64,000 bases of DNA from Candidatus Krumholzibacteriota bacterium (GTDB lineage Bacteria > Krumholzibacteriota > Krumholzibacteriia > Krumholzibacteriales > Krumholzibacteriaceae), in contig JAFGCX010000017.1 in NCBI GenBank assembly GCA_016932415.1, positions 1-64,000 on the forward strand, in the 5' to 3' direction. The stretch's first letter is position 1; each line of letters opens with the position of its first letter. The translations under genes and the position numbers were made by a program. The notes beneath the pieces are model-generated. The model was not told the DNA's origin, searched no databases, and saw only the letters and a list, made by a program, of their open reading frames with translations. Below are positions 35,639 through 49,780 of this stretch, piece by piece.

Positions 35639-38600
35639 ATGCTGGTATCGATGGACAAGATGCGGAAAAGAAGCTTAAAAATCGCTAAAAAAGGAAAAAC
35701 CGGTAAATTATTGCCCACTGTAGCTGCAATTCTGGCATTCAATTATCTTCTCTGTGCCTCCGGCTCACGAGTCCTGGCTGACCAGGGGGGAGAATGGAGC
35801 CCGGATAGACCTCAAGCCGCCGTCGCTGTGACCGCGGGGTTATGGATCACCGAAGTATCCTGCCCGTACGATACTCTCGCAATCAATCAGAAGAATATAC
35901 CGGTGACAGTCAGGGTGAAGAACCTTTCTGACTCGGAGATCAGTATACAGCTTCTGTCGCTGATCTTTACCTATGTCTCATCGGGGGATCACAATTCAGA
36001 TTACACGGTCACAGGGTCGCCGAGCGCCGACTCGCTCCTTTCGCCGGATATGACGGGCACTTTCGAATTCGATATAGATGTCAATCCCGATGCTATTACC
36101 GATGTCAACATTTCTGTCAAAGCGGTGGTCGTCGGAGAGAAACAGGACAATCTGCAGATCATATCGGCGAGAAGTGACGACATCATCTACGCGCTCGATA
36201 GTTTTTCCATAGTAGCTCTCGACAATAATGATGGAACGTATAACTGGCGGGCTGAGTGGACGGAGATCGGCGAGTCGGATGGTCCCGGAATCGGAAAGAT
36301 ACAGGTAGTCGAAAGCCCGGGAAATCTGCGGATCGGTGACCCCGCTTCATATTCCCCCGTGGGAGTCAGCAGAGCGATCAAACTTGGTGACGCGGGCAGG
36401 GCCCTTCTTGAGTTCAGTTGGGCGAGGGATCCCGCATACGGGTTTAACGGGACCCTGGTCGTCGAAATATCCGAGAACGGGACAGACGGATGGGAGACGA
36501 TCTTTACTGTTGGAAGTGGTCCCGGCACATCTTTCGCGACACAGATCTTTGATATGTCAGATTATATCTCCGACGATACTGCTATCCGTCTCATGACTTC
36601 CGGGACCTGTTCGGGAATTGTATATTTCGACGATATTAAGGTGACTCCCGAGACTTTGACCGGCGCGTTCGACTGGACCGTTCTGTCCGATGTCATCTTT
36701 TTTACCGCCGCTCTTTTTGACACGAAGAATTCAAGAGTGCGGGCGGACGATGGACTACTTTTTGTTTCGGATGAGGAAGGAGTGATCCTCAACAATATAC
36801 ATTATTTGAATGGCGGCAGACCGTTGATTTCGATCCCATTTGAGCAGGAAACGCTCTATCGCCTCGTCATCCAGTTCAATTCGACATTTGACTGGGACTG
36901 GGAACCTAAGGAAAGTGAAGAAGGCTACGTCGCCTTCAACGATTCTTCTCTTGGTTTCGGGAGGATCTCGGCCCCTCGACCCGGCCTGAAGGAGCTTCTT
37001 CTCTCCGAATTGATGATAGGGGACGAGGAGGCCGATCCGGCTGATTATCTTATAGGCGCAACCAAAAGCGACGATCCCGTTATCCCCTGGACGATGAAGA
37101 CCGATCCCCTGCTCGACCCGAAAGTGGACGATGGGAAAGTCAAGGAGTATGGTGCTCTGGTGGAGGGATTAGATCCTCCGAGGATGATCATCGACTGCAG
37201 GGATGATGATAAACACTGGGAAATAACGGGCAACTGCGAGTCGGACCGCTACTATTTCCACGAAGTATGGTTTAAGCCGGACCTTGAATGGGCGCATGGC
37301 GATACGGCTGACATCTTTCTTCATCTCGGCGGCAAGGAACCGGACGAAAACCTCGACGAGCTCCATCTTCTCCTCAGGATGATAGACGATGATTACGCAG
37401 GTCCAGTCATCTCGGATTTTTCCCCCGAAGTACTTCCGGCAGGGGCTGTGGATTATATAACATGTCTTATAACCGATCCGAGCGGCGTCTATGACGACGA
37501 GTCGGGGGCGGGTGGCCAGGGAGTATATCTTCTCTGGGATACCGATGGCAGCCTTGAAGACGATTATAATGAAATGCTGATGTCCCCGGCGGGCGGCGGA
37601 TATTTTACAAGCGACGGGATGGTCGGAGGAGTGGCGGAAGGGACAGACCTGGTATACAGGGTCTTCGCCTGCGACGACGATTCCGACAGGGGGGCTCCGG
37701 ACAGGAGCTGTTCGGTGAGCAGTATACAGCATATCCAGATACTCGGTTCGGCGATAGTATTCGACAACCCGTCAACGCTTACGCCCGATTTCGTGTACCC
37801 GGGAGATGAGGATCAGGTCTTTTCGATCAAAGTCAGCAATCCAAATCCAGAAAATATAGTAATTCTACCCGCGGTATCGTATCTGCAAATAGATGACGGT
37901 GATTCGATCATCACGACTTACCTGGCAAACGAGACCCTTCTTGTCCCGGGCGCGACTCAATTCCCGATTTCATTCGATCCGGTCGATATTCCTGAAGATT
38001 TTTCCGCTCCCGATTCTCTCGAGCTGACCCTCCACCTTGAGGGGACTTTCATGGGATTTATATTCTGGGAGCAAACCTGGACAGCTTCCATCACGAACAG
38101 GCTAATAGTCAGGGAACCTCTCCTGCTGATCGAAGCTCATTCGATCGCTTCGGTAGATGTAAACCCCGGAGATAGAAAAATTGAACTGATGCGCCTGGAG
38201 ATAAGCCTCGATGGCATCGGTGATATATCGATCGATAGCCTCGTTGTCTTGAATCCAATTGGCAGCGAGGCTGAGCGTTCGGGAAGCGATTCGAATTTTG
38301 AAAGATTGTATCTTTACAAGGAGGCTGATGTTCCCGAGACGACCGGTCAAATCGAGGAAGACGCCGGGGAGCCTCTCCCGGCGAGCAGGCCGCTGGGCGA
38401 AGGAGATTCTCTTCTGGCCGAGGCTGTTTTTGAAAACAGAAGGGCCGTATTCGATCTGTCGAGTGGAAAGGTGATTCATCCCGGAGAATCTGTCTATTAT
38501 TACATCGCCGCGGATGTCGATTCATTTTCAGCCCGGGATGGAGAATATCTCGACGTTGAGATCGACTCTCCCGATTCGATCCATATCTCGGGAAATGCAT

Positions 38601-41600
38601 CGATATTTATCGATGATCTTCCGCTGAATTCAGAGGGAAGCTGCCGCATAGACGGTTTTCTCAGCTTCCAGGCCCGGGTCGTCAATGTTCTTCCCGACAC
38701 GGTCTATTCCGGAGGCAGCGGCGAGCTTGTACTTGCCGTCGACCTTCCCGGAAACGGTAATTCTCCCGATATACTGTCGGGTCTTTCGGCATGGAACTTC
38801 GGCGATTATGAAGCGAACGGCCTGGTCGAGGAGTTGATCCTGTGGGCTGATAACGGGAATGGCGTTTTTTCTTCGGAAACCGACGGCTCTCTCGGGATCT
38901 TAAGCAACACGGGAGGCCGTTTCCAGATATCCGGACTCTCGCAACCTATATTCGGGTCAAAAAGATTCTTTCTGACGGCTGTCTTCGGACAGGGATTTAC
39001 AGAGAATCTCCTGGTGAGATTCGGAATCCCGGAAAACGGCGTCGAATATATATCGGGAAACGATGGTCCACTTGATTCAGAATTGATCAACACTCACTCG
39101 CAGATCCTCATAAGGCGCGAAGGAGTGACAATCGAGAGTTTTCAGTCAGCCGACCGGCCGGACGTGTTGTATCCAGGTGATAGAAATGCGGAGATATTCG
39201 GGATGAGGGTCAGAAACAACACCATTGGTCAGGCTATTATCGATTCTCTGAGTCTTGCATCGGAGATGAGACTCTTCGAATGCGAACCTCTCAAGCCGGT
39301 GTTTCTGTTTCTTGATGACGGCGATGACACGTTCGATCCTGAAAAGGATACCATACTGTCAGAGACAGCCTGGTCTGAAGGGGAGGGATTTTTCGGCGAG
39401 ATCGGAATCGATATAGCTTCGGGAGCCGAAGCAGTACTGTATCTGGCCACAGACATCGATTCATTCAGGACCGCTGATGGTGAGACTCTGTCAGTGTGGC
39501 TTGATAACGTAGAGGATATCTATTTGTCAATAGAAACAGAGAACCCTTATGAGATATCGGGAGATTTTCCCCTCATGGTCGAGGAGGCGCCGTCTACCGA
39601 TGGGATGCTTTCATTCCAGATCAGATTAAGCGCGGGGGACAGCACGATCTCGGGGCGGACCGAAAATATCCCGGTCCTTGATCTTGTTATTCCCGGAAAC
39701 GGTTGCCATGACGATACGCTCACTTCGATCACGGTCGTCAACGACGGAACAGCTGGCAAAGAACATATAAAAAGGACTGTTCTCTGGAAAGATGATGGAG
39801 ACGGGATCTTCGATCCGGATTCGGATGAATTCCTTTCCGAACTTGATCAGATCGAGACAAAGAAATACAATTCTTCCGGCCTTGCGGTAACGTTGACTGG
39901 CGGATCGGGGGAAAGACTGTTTGTATCGGTAGACCTTGAGGACGCCTTTACTACCGGGGCTTCGATCATGGCGGGAATTCCCAGGATGGGCATCGGGGTC
40001 GCCTCGGGGAACGATGGACCGTCAGATAAGGATATATTTTCCGATAAAAGCATACTGATTCCCGTTCCAGACCGCGTGACGCTATATACCAGCATGCTGG
40101 GAAACAGACGAGTCCACCCGGGAGAAAATGATCTGCTCATAATGGTGATCGGCGCGTACAACAGCTACGCGCTGCCCAAAACGCTTCAGTCGATCCAGCT
40201 TCTGAGAAGCGGTTCGGCCAGGCCTGAGGAGATCCTCAGAGCGAAAGCATATTCAGACGCGGATGAAGACGGATTTTTCGATCCAGCGTCCGACAGACTG
40301 CTTCAGACGGTAGAATCTTCCGGCGTACTCTTCGAGTTCGACGCCCTTCTGATGACGCTGGCACCTTATAAAAGCAGCCAGATATTTATTGCCTATGATA
40401 TTCCCGGCGAAGGAGTGCGCGATTCGGTCGCGGTCGATTTCAGCATACCAGACAGGACATGGGTATCATTTATAAGCGGTACTACGGTAATAGAGGGCGA
40501 ATTTCCGCTCAATTCGGCCGGAGAAGACCTGATTGATGGCATGGTGGCATCGCAGATAGAAGTCGCGACGGTAAACAGCGCGCGGGTTTCCCCCGGGGAC
40601 ATGGATGTTCCCTGTTTTTCCTTCCGGCTGCCGTGCAACGGGACCCAGGGGGATTCGCTTATAAGCATAGTCCTTGAAAACGAAGGTTCCGGCATGCCGG
40701 GGATCGATATCGAATATCTCAAGTTATGGAAGGAAGGGGGGGGTGAAGATGGGATCTACGATCCGGGGGAGGAAGAGTTTATAGGGTATTTCATGTGGAA
40801 CGGTAGCAGTTGGAACACAGTATCGAGCCTCTGGGAGTATATCGATTGCGATGGATTGTCTCTTCATGTCACGGCCGATTTTTCCGAGATAGCGGTCGAT
40901 GGCAGGACAGTTGTTCTCTCTCTCCCTGTAGACGCGATCGAAGTCCGGTCCGGTAACGATGGACCGATCGACAGGCCGCTGATATCTAAAGCGAAAATTA
41001 CAGTCACCACCGATCCGATCATCGTATCATTCGTACCAATACTGCCGGTAACTACGGGCCAGGTATTCGACTGCGAATTGATTTTGAGCAACGTCACCGA
41101 TTCACTGCTCACAATGGTCCGCCCCGACAGTTTTATGCACTTTGGCGACGGAGGAATCGCGCCTCTCTCCGGACCTTTCCCGGAATCGATCGATCTGGAA
41201 GCCCACCACGACAGCTCTTTCACATGGAGTTTCAACGCCGTCTCGCAGGGAAAAATCGTTTTTCAGGCAAAAGCCTCTGAAGACGGGGGAATCGCCCAGA
41301 GCCGCCTGGAATACTCTGATACAATATCGATTGAAAACATCCCCGACGATTTCGATATCATGATCGACGATCTTTCCCCGGTAAGTCTCAACAGGGGACA
41401 CAGGGCAGCCGAAGTTTTCGAAATGGCCGTCAGTTATAGTTCAGGATGCGAGCAGTGCGCCGCTGTGGACTTTGTCTCGATCGAATTGATCTTCACCGAT
41501 GGCGCGGGAACCGGACTTGCGGTAAACGACGTCGCTTCTAAAATAACTTTTGAGGATGAAACAATGGTCCTGTTCTCTGCGCAGACCTCATCGGTGACAG

Positions 41601-43609
41601 ATTCGACGATCGAACTGACACCGGTCGAACCTGTAATATTTTCTCCCGGCGATATGAAGATATTCACAGTTTCTCTCGATGTGGCAGAGGATGCCAGGGC
41701 GGCGAATTTCAGGCTGCTGTTGGAAGACCCCGATGATATATCTATAATCGATCATAATAACTCTGCCCTGGTCATTTTCGGCGGATCGACATTTCCCTGG
41801 TCGACCAATACGATCACTCTTAAAGATCCGGCGGTCGAGCTTCTGGTGGGCGTCGATACGCAACTTCCTGAAAAGGTCAACAGGGGACAGGAGACAGTAC
41901 CAGCGTTCAGTCTTGTCATTGCGAATTCAGGGGGATCTTCGGCGGCCGATATCAGTGTTTCGGCGATCGAGTTCAAGACATTCGATATGTCGAATGAACC
42001 GCTCGCGCCATCCGGTTTTCTGAAAAAGATAAGAATTCAGGATATGTACGGGTACAGTTATTTCGTCACCGATGTTTTCCCGCTTTCGTCAGGGATCCAC
42101 TGTCTTTTCCAGCCCGAACTGGTCGTTTCAGCGCTGACTCCCCTGGTACTTAACGCATTTCTGGATTTCAGATCTGATCCCGAGCCATCCGCGTTCGCCA
42201 TATCTTTACACGATTCGATCTCTGTTTCGGCCAGGGATATAAATTCCGGTCAGACTGTGGAAGTCAGGGCGAACGCATCCGAAGGATACGGGTTTCCTAT
42301 GAATTGCGGCGAAGCGATTTTTATAGATCCTTTGAGCAGCTTTTCAATTTCAGGTGATGGACTTCTTCCCACCAGGATCACCGGTGGGCTCGACGATGTC
42401 GACGCTCTACGCCTGACCCTTTGTCACACGGGAACAACCGGCGAATCTCCGGCGGCAGTATCGGGGCTTTCCCTGCGGCTGATCGACCAGACTGGAGGAG
42501 GTCTCGCGCAGAACAGTAAATTTTCAGCGATAAGAGTCGAATCGATCGACAGTGTTATCTGCGCAGTCTACCCTACCGCTCTCGATACTTCATCTTACAT
42601 AAGGATGGAATTTGACGATCCTGTCCTTATCGAACCGGAAGGTTCCGTGGTCCTTGATATATCGCTGGATATTGACCAGGATGCGGTTCCGGGATATTTC
42701 CAGATGCATCTATACGGAACCGCGGTCGAAATACTTGACGCGACATCTGGAGCGGTTTTCGACAAACCGACAGGCGCTTTTCCCCTGTCGAGCGGATTGA
42801 CCAACGTGGTGATCCCCGTGGGCAGCATCTCTTTCGAAGCCAGTGGAGTCCTGCCTGCGAATATTGCCGCGGGCGAGAAAGTAAAGGCATTCGACCTCCG
42901 GTTCTCAAGAAGCGCTGATTCAGGCGGCTCGACCGCCATGATCGATTTCATAACTCTTCACTTCGAGGATGAAAAGAAGATGCCGGTGGAGACAGCTTCC
43001 GATATCGCCGGAATCACCATCGAATCCGGGTCCGGGATGATAGAGACAGAGGCAGTCCAGATCGAAGATGGCGTAAGGGTGGATTTTATCGATCCTCAAA
43101 GACTTGAATCGGAAGAAACACTCGATCTCGAACTTTTTCTCACCATCGCCCCCGGCACCGCGATCACGATGGTATCTGCCGCGATCAGGTCTGCCGATGA
43201 TATTTCCGGCACTGACGAGACTACAGGCGATCCCGTCGCGGTGGGACTCGCCGATGGAAGCGCGTTTCCCTTTAATTCAGGGAGGGCAGCCCTGCTCTCG
43301 ACTGAACTGGAAGACTCGTTTTCCAACTATCCCAACCCGTTTGTCGCCAGCAGAGAAAAGACGACGATCGTTTTTTTCATGCCGGATAATGGAACGGTGA
43401 CGGTCCAGGTTTATACTATTCTGGGCCGCCTCGTCAGGACTCTGGCGCTCAATGAAGAACGTGGCGCGGGGCCACACCAGGATATTTCATGGGATGGACG
43501 AAATGGCAGGGGAGAAAAAGTGATCAACGGAGTCTACTACCTGGTTCTGAAAGCGAAAATCAATGGAAAGGAACAGGTCCTGAGACGAAAGGCCGCTTTG
43601 GTACGATGA
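35639..43609 (+). CDS. Giant secreted repeat protein (2656 aa) with FlgD-like sorting C-terminus
   Basis: A long exported protein. The N-terminus has charged residues and then a hydrophobic segment (LPTVAAILAFNYLLCASGSR), a likely signal peptide. Its start is uncertain: ATGs at 35639, 35651 and 35660 all lack a good ribosome-binding site. The first part includes a jelly-roll-like domain (GNLRIGDPASYSPVGVSRAI to SGIVYFDDIKV). From about residue 980 there are three modules of about 316 residues, each with SGNDGP (1139, 1456, 1771) and calcium-loop-like DDGDGIFDPDSD-type motifs. From about 1910 four modules of about 165 residues follow, starting VSLNRG, KVNRGQ, RITGGL and NIAAGE. It ends with NYPNPFVASREKTTIVFF and a FlgD-like fold. 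No enzyme motif was found; an adhesin, stalk or surface-layer role is likely. The next gene is coupled by ATGA. Confidence 0.88.
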   Translation: MLVSMDKMRKRSLKIAKKGKTGKLLPTVAAILAFNYLLCASGSRVLADQGGEWSPDRPQAAVAVTAGLWITEVSCPYDTLAINQKNIPVTVRVKNLSDSEISIQLLSLIFTYVSSGDHNSDYTVTGSPSADSLLSPDMTGTFEFDIDVNPDAITDVNISVKAVVVGEKQDNLQIISARSDDIIYALDSFSIVALDNNDGTYNWRAEWTEIGESDGPGIGKIQVVESPGNLRIGDPASYSPVGVSRAIKLGDAGRALLEFSWARDPAYGFNGTLVVEISENGTDGWETIFTVGSGPGTSFATQIFDMSDYISDDTAIRLMTSGTCSGIVYFDDIKVTPETLTGAFDWTVLSDVIFFTAALFDTKNSRVRADDGLLFVSDEEGVILNNIHYLNGGRPLISIPFEQETLYRLVIQFNSTFDWDWEPKESEEGYVAFNDSSLGFGRISAPRPGLKELLLSELMIGDEEADPADYLIGATKSDDPVIPWTMKTDPLLDPKVDDGKVKEYGALVEGLDPPRMIIDCRDDDKHWEITGNCESDRYYFHEVWFKPDLEWAHGDTADIFLHLGGKEPDENLDELHLLLRMIDDDYAGPVISDFSPEVLPAGAVDYITCLITDPSGVYDDESGAGGQGVYLLWDTDGSLEDDYNEMLMSPAGGGYFTSDGMVGGVAEGTDLVYRVFACDDDSDRGAPDRSCSVSSIQHIQILGSAIVFDNPSTLTPDFVYPGDEDQVFSIKVSNPNPENIVILPAVSYLQIDDGDSIITTYLANETLLVPGATQFPISFDPVDIPEDFSAPDSLELTLHLEGTFMGFIFWEQTWTASITNRLIVREPLLLIEAHSIASVDVNPGDRKIELMRLEISLDGIGDISIDSLVVLNPIGSEAERSGSDSNFERLYLYKEADVPETTGQIEEDAGEPLPASRPLGEGDSLLAEAVFENRRAVFDLSSGKVIHPGESVYYYIAADVDSFSARDGEYLDVEIDSPDSIHISGNASIFIDDLPLNSEGSCRIDGFLSFQARVVNVLPDTVYSGGSGELVLAVDLPGNGNSPDILSGLSAWNFGDYEANGLVEELILWADNGNGVFSSETDGSLGILSNTGGRFQISGLSQPIFGSKRFFLTAVFGQGFTENLLVRFGIPENGVEYISGNDGPLDSELINTHSQILIRREGVTIESFQSADRPDVLYPGDRNAEIFGMRVRNNTIGQAIIDSLSLASEMRLFECEPLKPVFLFLDDGDDTFDPEKDTILSETAWSEGEGFFGEIGIDIASGAEAVLYLATDIDSFRTADGETLSVWLDNVEDIYLSIETENPYEISGDFPLMVEEAPSTDGMLSFQIRLSAGDSTISGRTENIPVLDLVIPGNGCHDDTLTSITVVNDGTAGKEHIKRTVLWKDDGDGIFDPDSDEFLSELDQIETKKYNSSGLAVTLTGGSGERLFVSVDLEDAFTTGASIMAGIPRMGIGVASGNDGPSDKDIFSDKSILIPVPDRVTLYTSMLGNRRVHPGENDLLIMVIGAYNSYALPKTLQSIQLLRSGSARPEEILRAKAYSDADEDGFFDPASDRLLQTVESSGVLFEFDALLMTLAPYKSSQIFIAYDIPGEGVRDSVAVDFSIPDRTWVSFISGTTVIEGEFPLNSAGEDLIDGMVASQIEVATVNSARVSPGDMDVPCFSFRLPCNGTQGDSLISIVLENEGSGMPGIDIEYLKLWKEGGGEDGIYDPGEEEFIGYFMWNGSSWNTVSSLWEYIDCDGLSLHVTADFSEIAVDGRTVVLSLPVDAIEVRSGNDGPIDRPLISKAKITVTTDPIIVSFVPILPVTTGQVFDCELILSNVTDSLLTMVRPDSFMHFGDGGIAPLSGPFPESIDLEAHHDSSFTWSFNAVSQGKIVFQAKASEDGGIAQSRLEYSDTISIENIPDDFDIMIDDLSPVSLNRGHRAAEVFEMAVSYSSGCEQCAAVDFVSIELIFTDGAGTGLAVNDVASKITFEDETMVLFSAQTSSVTDSTIELTPVEPVIFSPGDMKIFTVSLDVAEDARAANFRLLLEDPDDISIIDHNNSALVIFGGSTFPWSTNTITLKDPAVELLVGVDTQLPEKVNRGQETVPAFSLVIANSGGSSAADISVSAIEFKTFDMSNEPLAPSGFLKKIRIQDMYGYSYFVTDVFPLSSGIHCLFQPELVVSALTPLVLNAFLDFRSDPEPSAFAISLHDSISVSARDINSGQTVEVRANASEGYGFPMNCGEAIFIDPLSSFSISGDGLLPTRITGGLDDVDALRLTLCHTGTTGESPAAVSGLSLRLIDQTGGGLAQNSKFSAIRVESIDSVICAVYPTALDTSSYIRMEFDDPVLIEPEGSVVLDISLDIDQDAVPGYFQMHLYGTAVEILDATSGAVFDKPTGAFPLSSGLTNVVIPVGSISFEASGVLPANIAAGEKVKAFDLRFSRSADSGGSTAMIDFITLHFEDEKKMPVETASDIAGITIESGSGMIETEAVQIEDGVRVDFIDPQRLESEETLDLELFLTIAPGTAITMVSAAIRSADDISGTDETTGDPVAVGLADGSAFPFNSGRAALLSTELEDSFSNYPNPFVASREKTTIVFFMPDNGTVTVQVYTILGRLVRTLALNEERGAGPHQDISWDGRNGRGEKVINGVYYLVLKAKINGKEQVLRRKAALVR

Positions 43610-45621
43610 TGTTTGTGCAGAGCAGAAAATATGTCGATGCCGTTCTGATATCGATGGCGATCCTCGCGCTCGGGGATCTTCCCCTGTTGGCCGGGGGCGA
43701 GGGAGGAGGCACGGAGTCTCCTTTTTCTCTTGGAGCGGGAGGTCGGAGTATTGCCATGGGAGGAGCGAAATGCGTGGTCTGGGGAGAGGCATATACGCTT
43801 CTCTGGAATCCGGCCGGGTTGGAATATCTTGAACGCGGGGAGATCAATCTGTTCCACACCCCTCTTTTGGATGAAACGAGTTCCTATTCCTCCATTCTGG
43901 GTTCATATCCATTGACCGATTTCGGCGCGATATCGTTCGGAGTCCTCAGGCTCGATGTCGGCGGAATAGAACGCAGGGACCAGGAAAACCTGGTGATCGA
44001 CGGAGAATTATCAAACAGGCAGACGAGGTATCTTTTCGGGTATGCAAGGAAAATATACAGAGGACTGTCAGGCGGCGTGACGATGAAACTCGACCGTTTC
44101 GTCCAAGGGTCGTACAACGCCAGCGGGTTCGGTGTCGACGCCGGGTTCGGGGTCAAGTCTGATATTGACAATGAGGCGTTCGATGGAGCCGCGTTGGGAC
44201 TTACACTGATAAATATAATCGAACCGAAGCTTAAACTCGAAGACGAAGAATCGGGCGACCCGTATGGGACCAGGGTCGGATTTGCCGTTTGGAGGTCTCT
44301 TTCAGGGCGTTTCGATGACAGGCTGCTCGTAGCGGTCGATATGATCAAGACAAAACATGACGAAGCGCGGATACAAGCCGGGTTCGAATATTCAGTAAAC
44401 CGGATGCTGGCTCTGCGTGGTGGATGGGATTCCGGTTCTCCGACCTTCGGGCTGGGATTCTCTCTTTCTTTCCTGCAGCTGGACTACGCCTGGCGAGACA
44501 GCGACCTTGAAAATTGTCATCTTTTCTCTCTTTCTTACAGATTCGGCAGCTCAAAGACGGAGCGGATCGAAAGACGGAAAAAAGAAAGAGAAGAGGAGAT
44601 AAAAAGGGAGCTGGAAAGAGAGACGGCGAGGTATGAGACAAGGCAGATGGAAAACTACCTTGCGAAAGCGCGGGAAGCCCTGCGGCAGGACAAGTTCAGT
44701 CAGGCGGAGGATCATTTCAAAACAGTCCTTCTCTGGGACCCTGAAAACGAGGAAGCAAAGGCGGGAAACCTGAAAGCGCAAGGATATATCATTATTACCC
44801 TGGCGGATTCGCTTTTCGCCGATGGAAGTTATGGCGAAGCCCTTATGCATTATCGAAAGGGGAACGAGAAGCTCTCCATCAGCGCGATAGACGACAGGAT
44901 CAGAGAATGCGAAAAACTGATCGGCCAGACCGCGGACCAGAGGCAGATGATCGATGCCGTCTTTGCCCATGCCGTTGAACTTTACTCCGAAAGGGACTGG
45001 ACTGGCGCCGTGGCAGCTTTCGCGCAGGTACTCAGGTTGGATCCGGGGCATGATATTGCCAGGCATTATTATGATAAGGCGACGGCTAGGCACAAGGAAG
45101 ATTACGCAAGGGTCCTTCAGCAGACCGGCGTTCTGGCGAGGAAAAAACGATACGGAGAAGCAATCGATCTTTTACGCTCTGGCCTGGACAAATTCAAGGG
45201 TGACGCCGAACTGGAGAAAAAACTTGCCGAGGTCATGGAACTCAGACAAAGAGAAGAAATAAGCACCATGGAAAAAGAAAAACCGGCGGCCACGAAAGCG
45301 CCTCTGACGAAAGAAGAAGCCGATAACTTGAGGTTGATATATGAAAAAGGCGCTGAATATTTCAAAAACGGAAAATTCGACAGAGCGATCGTCGAGTGGG
45401 AAAAAGTGTGGCATGGATACCCCGGATCCGAGCAGATCGGAGAGTACCTGGTCAAGGCCTACCTTTACCGGGGGATGGAGCTTTACACGATGCATGATTA
45501 CGAAGAAGCGCTCGAGATCTGGGGCAGGATATTGAAAGTAGATCCTGATAATGAAAAAGCTATCAGATATATAAGAAGGACAAAAGAGGAACTGAGCAGT
45601 CTCGAAAATGTAGCCGGATAG
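43606..45621 (+). CDS. PorV-like outer-membrane barrel fused to TPR domain
   Basis: A 671-aa protein starting at ATG 43606, whose first bases overlap the giant gene's stop (ATGA). After a signal peptide (VLISMAILALGDLPLLAGG) comes SPFSLGAGGRSIAMGGAKCV and AYTLLWNPAGLEYL, the entry signature of PorV/PorQ/UPF0164-type barrels, extending to about residue 320 (LFSLSYRFG). A highly charged coiled coil follows (RIERRKKEREEEIKRELERE). The rest is tetratricopeptide repeats: SQAEDHFKTVLLWDPENEEA, TGAVAAFAQVLRLDPGHD, and EEALEIWGRILKVDPDNEKA. PorV is the shuttle component that delivers type IX substrates. Pairing with a sorting-tagged giant fits an export or attachment role, though the TPR half would be periplasmic and is not known in PorV itself. 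Confidence 0.85.
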   Translation: MMFVQSRKYVDAVLISMAILALGDLPLLAGGEGGGTESPFSLGAGGRSIAMGGAKCVVWGEAYTLLWNPAGLEYLERGEINLFHTPLLDETSSYSSILGSYPLTDFGAISFGVLRLDVGGIERRDQENLVIDGELSNRQTRYLFGYARKIYRGLSGGVTMKLDRFVQGSYNASGFGVDAGFGVKSDIDNEAFDGAALGLTLINIIEPKLKLEDEESGDPYGTRVGFAVWRSLSGRFDDRLLVAVDMIKTKHDEARIQAGFEYSVNRMLALRGGWDSGSPTFGLGFSLSFLQLDYAWRDSDLENCHLFSLSYRFGSSKTERIERRKKEREEEIKRELERETARYETRQMENYLAKAREALRQDKFSQAEDHFKTVLLWDPENEEAKAGNLKAQGYIIITLADSLFADGSYGEALMHYRKGNEKLSISAIDDRIRECEKLIGQTADQRQMIDAVFAHAVELYSERDWTGAVAAFAQVLRLDPGHDIARHYYDKATARHKEDYARVLQQTGVLARKKRYGEAIDLLRSGLDKFKGDAELEKKLAEVMELRQREEISTMEKEKPAATKAPLTKEEADNLRLIYEKGAEYFKNGKFDRAIVEWEKVWHGYPGSEQIGEYLVKAYLYRGMELYTMHDYEEALEIWGRILKVDPDNEKAIRYIRRTKEELSSLENVAG

Positions 45622-45640
45622 CCGAAAGGCGTTGAAAGAC

Positions 45641-47191
45641 GTGAAGATATTAAGTCTGAAAATACAGATCACTTTATCAGTGATTCTTCTGGTCGCAGGT
45701 ATTGTCGGGGCGTTTTCATTGACCGTTGCCAGGATACAGAAAAATATCGTTCTGGAAGAGATGACAGAGATCGTTATCCTCCAGGGCAGGAACCTCGCGC
45801 TGAATTATTCAAAGCCCCTTCTTCACAGCGATCCGGAGTTCGAGCTTCATCCGCATATCTCAAGAGTGCTTGAAAAGAACGCCGATATCATACAGATAAT
45901 CGTTGTCGATAACGCCGGTATAATCAAAGGACACAGCGATCTTAGAATGATCGACGGCAGGTACGCTCATTCCCCGGGATTGGAGAGAACGAAAGGGTCC
46001 TCGAGGCTGGACGGGATAGAAGAACTTCGTGAAAACGACGACATTCTTGAGGCGAAGATACCGATCATCGATCAGGATGAATCGATCGGTCATGTCTATC
46101 TGACATATTCAAAAAAGAGGATGCGGCAGGCGGTCGCCGCGATTTACAGCAGAGTCCTCAAGATCGGACTAAGCGCTCTTGTCGCGGGGTCTGTAATTTC
46201 CCTTCTGCTGGCGCTGCATATAACGAGACCCGTAAGTATACTGACCGAGGGCGCCGAGTTGATCGGGCAGGGGAATCTTGATACGAGGATCACCGTAAAA
46301 TCAGGCAGAGAGATCCAGGCCCTCGCTGACACATTCAACCAGATGGCAGTGAGGCTTAAAAGCGACAGGATCGCGATGCTCGAAAAAGAAAGAATGGATA
46401 AGGAGCTTGAGATAGCGAAAAGCATCCAGGAAACGCTACTTCCGTCTGACATGCCGGTGATGAAAGGTTACCAGCTGGAAACGTATTATAATCCCGCTCA
46501 GGAGGTCGGGGGGGATTATTTCGATGTGATACCGATAGGCGGCAACAGGATAATGTTCATTGTCGGCGACGTGGCGGGAAAGGGAGTGCCGGGCCTGGTG
46601 ATCATGGCCATGGCCAGGGTCATGGTTAGGGATCTTGCCAAAAGAGGAGAAAACCCGGCAAGGTTGCTCAGATACCTTAATATCCACCTTGGGCAGGATA
46701 TAAAGAACAACATCTTTTTGACCCTTTTCTGTGGAATTCTCGATACGGAAAAGCGGACTTTCGATTACGCCAGCGCCGCTCATATGCCTATACTCTTTTA
46801 TCGGCATAAAGAACAGACAGTCTATTCGCTTGGAACAAAAGCCAAGCCGCTTGGAATTTTCGACGATGATGTATTTTCCGTTGGGCTGGAGGAAAACAGA
46901 CTAGTTCTCGAGCCTGGAGACCTGATACTGCAGTATACTGACGGGCTTACCGAGATGCGTAACCTGTCGGGTGATGAATATGGATTTGACAGGATCACAT
47001 CGATCGTCAAAGGAAGCGCTCGCAAAGGGGCGCGTGATCTTCTTCCCGAGATCCTGAGCGATCTTGGTGAATTCAGGGCTGAAGCGGCGCAGAGCGATGA
47101 TCTGACCCTTCTTGCTCTAAGCCTCACCGGGAACCGGATAATAGACGAAGTTGCCGGAGGCAAAAACGGAATGATGGTAAAGAGGGGCTGA
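45641..47191 (+). CDS. Membrane SpoIIE-type PP2C serine phosphatase with HAMP
   Basis: A 516-aa protein. I favour GTG 45641 as start (MKILSLKIQITLSVILLV), with AAAGG eleven bases upstream; TTG 45632 is an alternative. The order is: transmembrane helix (residues about 8-28), a periplasmic sensor of about 130 residues, a second helix (IGLSALVAGSVISLLLALHI), HAMP (ITRPVSILTEGAELIGQGNL), a linker helix, and the phosphatase. Catalytic aspartates are visible in EVGGDYFDVI, IVGDVAGKGVPG and SDDLTLL. Such RsbU-like enzymes dephosphorylate STAS antagonists and so switch partner-switching systems on. Its target is very likely the STAS domain encoded by the next gene. Confidence 0.94.
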   Translation: MKILSLKIQITLSVILLVAGIVGAFSLTVARIQKNIVLEEMTEIVILQGRNLALNYSKPLLHSDPEFELHPHISRVLEKNADIIQIIVVDNAGIIKGHSDLRMIDGRYAHSPGLERTKGSSRLDGIEELRENDDILEAKIPIIDQDESIGHVYLTYSKKRMRQAVAAIYSRVLKIGLSALVAGSVISLLLALHITRPVSILTEGAELIGQGNLDTRITVKSGREIQALADTFNQMAVRLKSDRIAMLEKERMDKELEIAKSIQETLLPSDMPVMKGYQLETYYNPAQEVGGDYFDVIPIGGNRIMFIVGDVAGKGVPGLVIMAMARVMVRDLAKRGENPARLLRYLNIHLGQDIKNNIFLTLFCGILDTEKRTFDYASAAHMPILFYRHKEQTVYSLGTKAKPLGIFDDDVFSVGLEENRLVLEPGDLILQYTDGLTEMRNLSGDEYGFDRITSIVKGSARKGARDLLPEILSDLGEFRAEAAQSDDLTLLALSLTGNRIIDEVAGGKNGMMVKRG

Positions 47192-47216: not shown

Positions 47217-48308
47217 ATGATTCTGGAAGAAATAAAATTTACTCCTTTTATTATCAGGGTCAGTGGCGATGAAAAACCGACTCCGGAATTCGCGATCAAG
47301 CTGATCAGCCTCGTGCACACGGCGGTTGAATGCAGGCTGGAGAGGATATTGCTTGCCCCACCGGATGATTATACGGTGTTCATGGAAAATGTTGTCAAAA
47401 ATATCATTGATAACAACGGGATAATCAAGAGGACGGCAGAAAAATCCCGACTCGAAAAAGATGTCGAAGGGAACGATATTATATGCAATGAAGAAAAATT
47501 CATATGCATCCGGAACCGGATGACTCCGGATAAATATTCGCTACGGATCATGGCAACCATGGACAATGTCGAACTGGCTCCGAAAGTTTCCGCGATGATA
47601 ACGAACATACTTGGATTTCCAGGATTCATCTCTTTCGGGGTACGATTCAGCGTCTACGAACTGCTCAATAATATTGTCGAATACGGCATTTACCGTATCG
47701 ATAAAGAATGGATCGATCTTGAAATTGAGAAGGAAAACGACAGATTACTCATCTCTATAGCCGATGAAGGAATAGAATTCGATCCGACAAGCAGTGACGA
47801 GTTCAATCTTGATAATTACCTGAAAGGCGGTGCCAAAAGAGGCTTGGGCCTGATGATGATAAAGAAGCTTAACGAGAAAATGAAATACGCGAGAGAAAGA
47901 AAAACAAACAGGGTGGTAATTGAAAAATTTGTTCCGGGAGAAGATATCCCGGGAAAGGAGAGGAATATGACGCCACTCAACATAGGGGTACCGAAATCGG
48001 TCGGCGAAGGGATATACAAGATCGAGCTTTCGGGAGATCTGGATTCCAAGGGAGCTCTGATTCTGGAAGAGACGATGAATGCGTTGCTCGAACGCAAAAT
48101 ACACAACGTCATACTTGATTTTGACAAGTTGACCTTTATCTCGAGCGCGGGAGTGGGGATGCTCCTGGGGCTCGTCTCGTCACTCAGGCGCGAGAAGGGG
48201 CAAGCGACCTTCATCAATGTCTCTGAGCACGTGAGATCAGTCTTCAATCTACTTAACCTGAATGATTATTTCGAGTTTTCAACGCCTGAAGAAGTTGCCG
48301 GGCGCTAA
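47217..48308 (+). CDS. RsbW-like serine kinase fused to RsbV-like STAS antagonist
   Basis: A 363-aa protein. Residues 1 to about 105 are of unknown type. Residues about 120-245 form a GHKL ATPase: N-box SVYELLNNIVEYG, G1 SIADEGIEFDP, G2 KRGLGLMMIKKL, as in anti-sigma kinases. From residue 251 (MTPLNIGVPKS) it becomes a STAS domain with the phosphorylatable serine in FISSAGVGMLLGL. Kinase and antagonist are normally separate proteins that bind each other alternately. A strong internal ribosome-binding site precedes ATG 47967 at the start of STAS, so free antagonist may also be made. It lies 25 bases after the SpoIIE phosphatase, completing a partner switch. No sigma factor is adjacent. Confidence 0.9.
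   Translation: MILEEIKFTPFIIRVSGDEKPTPEFAIKLISLVHTAVECRLERILLAPPDDYTVFMENVVKNIIDNNGIIKRTAEKSRLEKDVEGNDIICNEEKFICIRNRMTPDKYSLRIMATMDNVELAPKVSAMITNILGFPGFISFGVRFSVYELLNNIVEYGIYRIDKEWIDLEIEKENDRLLISIADEGIEFDPTSSDEFNLDNYLKGGAKRGLGLMMIKKLNEKMKYARERKTNRVVIEKFVPGEDIPGKERNMTPLNIGVPKSVGEGIYKIELSGDLDSKGALILEETMNALLERKIHNVILDFDKLTFISSAGVGMLLGLVSSLRREKGQATFINVSEHVRSVFNLLNLNDYFEFSTPEEVAGR
47954..47969 (+). promoter_or_regulatory. Internal ribosome-binding site and ATG at the start of the STAS domain
   Basis: AAAGGAG (47954-47960) lies six bases before ATG 47967, which is in frame with the long ORF and falls exactly at the border between the kinase and STAS domains. Translation from here would give a free 113-aa RsbV-like protein. 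Use of the site is an inference, but its strength is equal to the best true starts in the window. Confidence 0.6.
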
Positions 48309-48334: not shown

Positions 48335-49780
48335 ATGACTGCGGCGGCAAGTATTGATGAGGAAAAAAAGACCGAATTGACGGTCGAAAAGACGAGGACC
48401 AGCCTTGACAACCGCGATTATTCATTCGATGCGCTTTTCCGTCTTTTTGAGAAACTCGGGACGACTCTCGAACTTGACAAGGTCATCAGGCTTTTTGTCA
48501 TGACCTTGGCCGGGCAATTGAGCCTGGGGCAGATATCATTCTATCTTTTTTCGAGGAAAACGGAAAAACTCGATTTATACTATTCACTCGGACTGGGCCG
48601 GGAAAACAGCGTTGATTCAATCTCAATCGATTCAGGTTTTGTCAATTGGCTTTTGTCGCGGGGATATCCGGCTAAGATAGAACTATTCGTGGCGAAACCG
48701 GATGATAACAGCGACGAAGATCAGAATGTCAAAAACCTACTGGTGGACGACTCGTTCAGGTACGCTTATCCACTGATCGATGGAGGCGAACTGCAGGGGA
48801 TGATAATTTTCGGTGACAGGATCACCGGTGAAGGATTCACCGATTTCAATATAGAGATACTCCACATGATGACGAGGATCGCGTCAATGACTGTTAAAAA
48901 CGCGGCACTCTACGAACATATGGTTCAATCCAGGATAAAACTAGAGAACTTCTCGAAAATGAAAAGAGAATTCATGCATCATACGTCGCATGAACTGAGA
49001 ACGCCATTGACAATACTTAAAAGTTCCCTCTCCTCGATCGATCCGAGGGAAGGAAGCGACGCGATGCTTGTCAATATAGCCATGGAAGCTGTCAATAAGC
49101 TCGCCGAACTGGTAGAACAGGTCCTTTCCCTGAACGCCGTAGAATCGGACGAGTCGTTTTTTAATTTCCAGAAAACAGAGATGGCCGGGTTCCTCGAAAA
49201 ATATTCGACAGATATCATTTCCGTTCTGGCCGAAAAAGGGATAACGTTGAAATTCGATAAAATCGGAGAGGCGAGAATAATCAGGGCCGATTCGGCAAAG
49301 ATACGCATCGCCCTGGACAGGATAATCGATAACGCGGTCTCCTCACTCTACACGGGCGGTACAATCTGTCTTGAGAGTTCTTTCAACGTCAATGATCCGG
49401 ACGATTCTGAAGGAGTCGAGATTAGGGGGGGAGCCCCGGGAGTTGAATCCACCTTTTTAGCTGAGAACAGACGTGAAGAAGAAGGATACGGGGAAGGCGC
49501 TGGTCGTTCGATAGACAAAATAAAAGCCGGGGATGATTTCGAAGGGTATTTCGTGATACGTATCAGGGATGATGGCGTCGGTATACCCGCCGGAGAGATC
49601 AAGGATATGGGAGAACCGTTCACCAGAGCTTCCAACTCAAGGACAAGCGAAGTTAAAGGGCTCGGTCTCGGGCTTTCAGTCTCGCAGAAGATAATCGCCG
49701 GTCACGGCGGGCACCTTCTATGTAAAAGTTCAGAAGGGAACGGGGCCGAATTTTCCATATGGCTTCCTGTCGCGAAGTGA
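48335..49780 (+). CDS. Cytoplasmic GAF-domain sensor histidine kinase
   Basis: A 481-aa protein without transmembrane helices. The GAF domain spans roughly residues 30-200 (LGTTLELDKVIRLFVMTLAG, MIIFGDRITGEGFTDFNIEI). The dimerisation helix holds the phospho-acceptor His in HHTSHELRTPLTILKSSLSS. The ATPase part has the N-box RIALDRIIDNAVSSL, G1 IRDDGVGIPAG, and G2 KGLGLGLSVSQKI. About 55 residues of low-complexity acidic sequence are inserted between the N and G1 boxes. It begins 26 bases after the kinase-STAS gene and completes the regulatory group. No response regulator is nearby, so its target is unknown. Confidence 0.93.
   Translation: MTAAASIDEEKKTELTVEKTRTSLDNRDYSFDALFRLFEKLGTTLELDKVIRLFVMTLAGQLSLGQISFYLFSRKTEKLDLYYSLGLGRENSVDSISIDSGFVNWLLSRGYPAKIELFVAKPDDNSDEDQNVKNLLVDDSFRYAYPLIDGGELQGMIIFGDRITGEGFTDFNIEILHMMTRIASMTVKNAALYEHMVQSRIKLENFSKMKREFMHHTSHELRTPLTILKSSLSSIDPREGSDAMLVNIAMEAVNKLAELVEQVLSLNAVESDESFFNFQKTEMAGFLEKYSTDIISVLAEKGITLKFDKIGEARIIRADSAKIRIALDRIIDNAVSSLYTGGTICLESSFNVNDPDDSEGVEIRGGAPGVESTFLAENRREEEGYGEGAGRSIDKIKAGDDFEGYFVIRIRDDGVGIPAGEIKDMGEPFTRASNSRTSEVKGLGLGLSVSQKIIAGHGGHLLCKSSEGNGAEFSIWLPVAK

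Follow-up and report, generated by a model that had tools for sequence, protein, structure and literature searches.

The locus and its genes

The window, a stretch of 64,000 nucleotides from a Candidatus Krumholzibacteriota genome of 3.11 Mb in 38 contigs, carries a run of five genes on its forward strand, one of which encodes a kinase and a STAS domain in one open frame. The genes, and the features within the fusion gene, are as follows.

35639..43609, + strand: first gene of the conserved locus, encoding a very large secreted protein that ends in a T9SS type A sorting / FlgD-like domain
43489..45621, + strand: PorV/PorQ-family outer-membrane barrel with TPR repeats (NF033709 PorV_fam, 100.5 bits, cut-off 90)
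45632..47191, + strand: membrane HAMP-PP2C (SpoIIE-type) phosphatase, presumed STAS phosphatase (SpoIIE 150.5 bits, HAMP 49.4 bits)
47217..48308, + strand: fusion gene, one intact open frame of 363 aa with N-terminal domain, GHKL kinase and STAS
47217..47537, + strand: N-terminal alpha/beta domain, residues 1-107 (AlphaFold2 pLDDT 91.7)
47628..47924, + strand: HATPase_c_2 kinase domain, residues 138-236, with N-box E148/N152, D183 and RGLGL
47932..47955, + strand: RNA hairpin with core CCGGGA/TCCCGG, directly upstream of the internal Shine-Dalgarno site
47954..47960, + strand: internal Shine-Dalgarno-like site AAAGGAG, 6 nt before ATG 47967 (M251)
47967..48308, + strand: predicted second product, a free STAS antagonist of 113 aa from M251, based on the near-invariant M251, the disordered linker and the STAS start of a separate-gene homologue (G040)
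48144..48146, + strand: codon of S310 in FISSAGVG, predicted from alignment with SpoIIAA to be the phosphorylated serine
48335..49780, + strand: histidine kinase (HisKA and HATPase_c), next gene after the fusion

The C-terminal 336 aa of the secreted protein matched TIGR04183 (27.5 bits against a cut-off of 23) and the Pfam family FlgD_ig. The listed open reading frame of the PorV-TPR gene overlaps the gene before it, and its true start probably lies further in. Between the end of the phosphatase frame at 47191 and the fusion lie 25 nt, which confirms the SpoIIE-type phosphatase that the original prediction had placed there; its motifs GGDYFD, GDVAGKG, DGLTE and DDLT are intact, and its best NCBIfam match was SiaA, at 64.6 bits far under the cut-off of 700. 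A promoter scan of the locus gave matches no more numerous than in shuffled sequences.

Domains of the fusion protein

The claim that a GHKL kinase runs in frame into a STAS domain with a phosphorylatable serine was borne out by the intact 363-aa frame and by Pfam, in which residues 138-236 matched HATPase_c_2 (45.6 bits, cut-off 27.4) and residues 264-355 matched STAS (55.6 bits, cut-off 22.6). Alignment of the STAS domain to SpoIIAA structures put S310 at the position of the SpoIIAA phospho-serine, and this serine is retained across all STAS rows of the family alignment. The active residues of phosphatase, kinase and STAS are all intact at the window locus. An AlphaFold2 model of the whole fusion (pLDDT 82) matched SpoIIAB, RsbW, SpoIIAA and RsbV chains. 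In the model, linker residues 241-249 are disordered, which places M251 exactly at the border between kinase and STAS. The fusion stays below the RsbW equivalog cut-offs (NF003144 / TIGR01924, 24.8 against 145 and 17.5 against 155 bits) and likewise below the SpoIIAA equivalog cut-off of NCBIfam.

Residues 1-107, which the original prediction had missed, form a compact, confidently folded domain in the predicted structure. This domain matched no Pfam family and no PDB fold at E<=0.001, with none below E 0.07. The kinase of G040, encoded by a gene of its own, has this domain too.

The fusion is conserved across two families

In a conservation search of 80 Krumholzibacteriota genomes, the fusion turned up at 19 loci, distributed over 14 genomes that comprise 11 of the 20 genomes of the window's own family (f1) and three genomes of a second family (f7), so that the architecture is indeed conserved in relatives. 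The fused frame is complete at 16 of the 19 loci; two of the others (G005 and G006) are cut between contigs, with the halves read apart, and the third (G042) is partly N-masked. Identity to the window protein among the fused homologues ranges from 18% to 56%. A scan of a contig collection returned one matching locus, from a Candidatus Krumholzibacteriota assembly, with a protein 57% identical, and no relatives of the fusion were found on plasmids. In both families the order of the locus is conserved, with a T9SS-like cargo followed by PorV-TPR, the HAMP-PP2C phosphatase, the fusion and the histidine kinase, the last of which directly follows the fusion in 15/15 f1 loci and 2/4 f7 loci.

We considered that two genes might have been joined into the single frame by an error of assembly or sequencing, as the same genes lie in different frames on one contig of a relative (G040_C262). 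The 16 full-length fused frames come from independent assemblies of two families, including some single-contig genomes; this conservation shows that the joining of the domains is not an assembly error and leaves that explanation with a negligible probability. A stop or frameshift between the domains in relatives had been proposed as the sign of such an error. Separate genes do occur in G028, G032 and G040, yet the fused frame recurs in so many independent assemblies that they do not carry that meaning.

An internal start at the domain border is kept at the RNA level

The original prediction had noted AAAGGAG 6 nt before an ATG at the domain border, and we located it at positions 47954-47960, with the modeled disordered linker at that border. 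Wherever the border is visible, the fused homologue carries a methionine there, and M251 is among only 16 nearly invariant columns of the alignment although it sits inside a variable linker. A Shine-Dalgarno-like site is kept in all 19 fused sequences with a visible border, spaced 5-8 nt before the ATG. It is stronger than the site of the first start in 16/16 genes in which both are visible, and among 395 in-frame internal ATGs in long open reading frames of the window, only about 2% have a Shine-Dalgarno energy of -9 or below. As the 16S tail gave no match in the 11 genomes searched, the canonical anti-Shine-Dalgarno sequence was assumed for all energies.

Holding the peptide fixed, we made 1000 synonymous recodings and compared the set mean of the Shine-Dalgarno energy. 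The mean of the 19 fused sequences, which are related rather than independent samples, was -10.15 kcal/mol against -6.57 +/- 0.59 after recoding, and 0/1000 recodings were as low. The excess persisted in thinned sets: f7 alone (0/2000), f1 type a (1/2000) and one sequence per deep lineage (0/2000). It was not significant in the b paralogues described below when tested alone (n=3; 156/2000), and tests on single genes were mostly weak (p 0.03-0.68).

One may ask whether the purine-rich motif is kept for the peptide that it encodes, such as a charged linker, with M251 being merely the first residue of the STAS fold. Most f1 rows do encode K-E or R-E at this place. Across the family, however, the residues vary and the Shine-Dalgarno core falls in three codon phases (KE, RE and QE in phase 0, RR and RG in phase 1, GG in phase 2), the signal exceeds that of synonymous recodings at a fixed peptide, and, as a negative control, none of the three STAS borders within another protein of this genome, 1454 aa long, has a Shine-Dalgarno site paired with a start. 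The codon phases and the synonymous test lead us to reject a constraint on the peptide, an explanation to which we give very little credence. A motif read in every codon phase, with more strength than the peptides need, indicates selection acting on the RNA, and we therefore consider the internal start and its Shine-Dalgarno site to be under RNA-level selection, as judged from the sequences. The idea that the gene yields two products is supported by this conservation of start and site in the fused homologues with a visible border.

The hairpin directly upstream of the internal site has a compensating change in a sister sequence (G010a, CCGGGG/CCCCGG), and hairpin strength over the family as a whole was matched by 3/300 recodings. 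Strong hairpins precede the internal site in G000, G010a, G016, G013 and G011b, and many relatives are without one; since it is not family-wide, a conserved hairpin was dropped from the claim. As a separate observation, a lone STAS gene on contig C3 of G010 (L058, minus strand, 1827-1484), 56% identical to the window STAS, has a Shine-Dalgarno site AAAGGAGG that can pair with CCTCCTT just upstream, forming a possible hairpin switch.

Homologues with separate genes

Separate kinase and STAS genes in the same gene order were found in G028, G032 and G040, where a PorV-TPR gene or a gene for a large secreted protein is followed by PP2C, kinase and STAS. The kinase stop and the STAS start overlap or nearly touch in G028 and G032; in G040 the two genes lie in different frames, and the start of the separate STAS gene corresponds to M251 of the fusion. 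The simplest history would be that the stop between adjacent kinase and STAS genes was lost and the ribosome-binding site of the STAS gene was kept. In a tree of fused and split forms, f1 is one group and the split form of G040 is placed, with long branches, within the fused f7 rows, a topology compatible both with a single fusion that was later split and with two independent fusions.

Domain borders of this switch have been joined elsewhere as well. At three loci (L143, L144 and L145, in G007, G032 and G033) the phosphatase is fused to the kinase and the STAS gene is separate, so that the other border is the one joined, and a PorV-TPR gene adjoins two of these loci.

A second locus with paired loss of catalytic residues

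Four genomes (G011, G015, G009 and G010) contain a second, shorter locus (L030, L031, L032 and L033) that consists of a fusion and a histidine kinase only. At this locus the N-box Asn of the fusion is lost in 3/4 and the H-box His of the histidine kinase in 4/4, and the STAS serine and the internal Shine-Dalgarno site and start are retained. The paired decay of fusion kinase and histidine kinase suggests that the two proteins act together, and points to the histidine kinase as a partner of the fusion. The products of the second locus may form a non-catalytic pair. The same four genomes also hold an intact fusion, so the STAS of the b paralogue could be a substrate of that kinase.

Comparison with known systems

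The locus resembles the RsbU-RsbW-RsbV and SpoIIE-SpoIIAB-SpoIIAA systems in having a PP2C phosphatase, a GHKL kinase with an intact N-box and a phospho-serine STAS in one operon. It differs from them in that kinase and antagonist are one protein, an extra N-terminal domain is present and the locus is without a sigma gene. The Pseudomonas SiaABCD system has a HAMP-PP2C membrane phosphatase, a kinase and a STAS-like antagonist, and its output is not a sigma factor (PMC7647112, PMC8457831). The parts of a partner switch with HAMP-PP2C phosphatase, kinase and STAS-type protein are thus shared, whereas SiaB and SiaC are separate proteins; here kinase and STAS are fused, the locus has no diguanylate cyclase and a HisKA/HATPase_c gene comes next.

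The closest precedent for the fusion itself is Rv1364c of M. tuberculosis, which carries PAS, PP2C, kinase and STAS on one chain and whose kinase phosphorylates the joined STAS (PMC9138534). In both proteins kinase and STAS are joined in frame on one polypeptide, but the phosphatase here is a membrane protein of its own, and no PAS match was found in Pfam. In the Krumholzibacteriota gene, moreover, the conserved internal start should also free the STAS, which would be a further difference.

Rv1364c contradicts the earlier assertion that kinase and antagonist are separate proteins in known systems, as does a chain encoded elsewhere in the window's genome. On contig C36 (L038:7032-11396), a 1454-aa protein has HATPase_c_2, a Cache-like region, HAMP, PP2C, a helix-turn-helix and three STAS domains; it holds an entire switch in a single polypeptide and exceeds Rv1364c in size. 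Behind it lie two free STAS genes (L038:13379-14156), and similar long frames of about 1350-1490 aa occur in many relatives.

For two products from one gene, a parallel is YscQ/SctQ, where an internal start gives the C-terminal domain beside the full-length protein and the products cooperate (PMC4295842). We predict the same arrangement here, with an internal start that lets one gene make two proteins; those of the two systems are unrelated, being structural subunits there and a kinase with its substrate-antagonist here. Among the open-licence papers searched, none of relevance was found to describe internal initiation in an RsbW/RsbV-type gene. The dual-product gene thus looks new for partner switching, while a kinase-STAS fusion as such is already known from Rv1364c.

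The feasibility of a one-chain switch, which Rv1364c demonstrates, bears on a further explanation, namely that the internal site and ATG are a relic of a former STAS gene and that the fusion is the sole functional product, working as Rv1364c does. The split genes in the same place in G028, G032 and G040 agree with this, in that the site would have been inherited. A relic, however, would be expected to have decayed in at least some homologues, and 19/19 keep the site although identity has fallen to 18-40%, in varied codon phases and above synonymous expectation. We regard a mere relic as improbable, though less so than a constraint on the peptide.

Proposed model and its output

Collectively, the architecture, its conservation, RNA-level selection on the start, synteny, the separate-gene homologues and the intact active residues make it likely that one gene gives rise to two functional products of a partner switch. 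From these features of the sequence we infer the presence of both products in the cell, an excess of free STAS, its phosphorylation and its target, in the following model.

Ribosomes starting at 47217 would make the fused kinase-STAS protein, which may be self-regulating, as originally suggested. At the stronger internal site, ribosomes would start at 47967, giving the free STAS antagonist of 113 aa, probably in excess. The kinase domain would place phosphate on S310 of the free antagonist and perhaps also on its own tethered copy, and the membrane HAMP-PP2C phosphatase would strip it upon an envelope signal. Unphosphorylated free STAS would then be the carrier of the signal, either docking on the kinase or acting on a target, for which the adjacent histidine kinase is the leading candidate, although we hold its assignment as the target only tentatively. 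The absence of a histidine kinase beside two of the four f7 fusions speaks against the model.

RsbW-type kinases commonly bind sigma factors. Another explanation accepts the two products but sees their output in an alternative sigma factor whose gene lies elsewhere; this would be an ordinary anti-sigma system, unusual in its gene layout. The host genome does hold 13 Sigma70_r2 matches, and contig C27 carries a separate kinase-STAS-sigma cluster. The earlier claim of a whole switch that lacks a sigma factor was thus overstated for the genome and stands for the locus: there is no sigma gene at the window locus and none was seen in the syntenic loci. The invariable presence of the histidine kinase behind the f1 fusions argues against a sigma output, as does the C27 cluster, in which another kinase-STAS pair already adjoins a sigma gene. 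We give a sigma output a fairly low probability, somewhat below that of the histidine kinase.

The full form of our model, in which a single mRNA has been selected to yield a tethered kinase-antagonist together with an excess of free antagonist, their ratio being set by two ribosome-binding sites, and in which the output is the histidine kinase and not a sigma factor, is a more speculative reading with a fairly low probability; it would tie serine-based partner switching into two-component signalling, at an envelope locus with T9SS-like features.

Discussion

The threshold of a partner switch is set by how much antagonist there is relative to kinase, and textbook systems use two genes for that ratio. 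If the gene described here does make two products, its two start sites would fix that ratio within one gene, in a layout that has outlived deep divergence. Gene annotation would list the fused protein alone and miss the second product. The family would offer a clean system for how tethered and free substrate compete for one kinase, and the paired decay at the second locus connects serine partner switching with two-component signalling in a way that can be put to the test.
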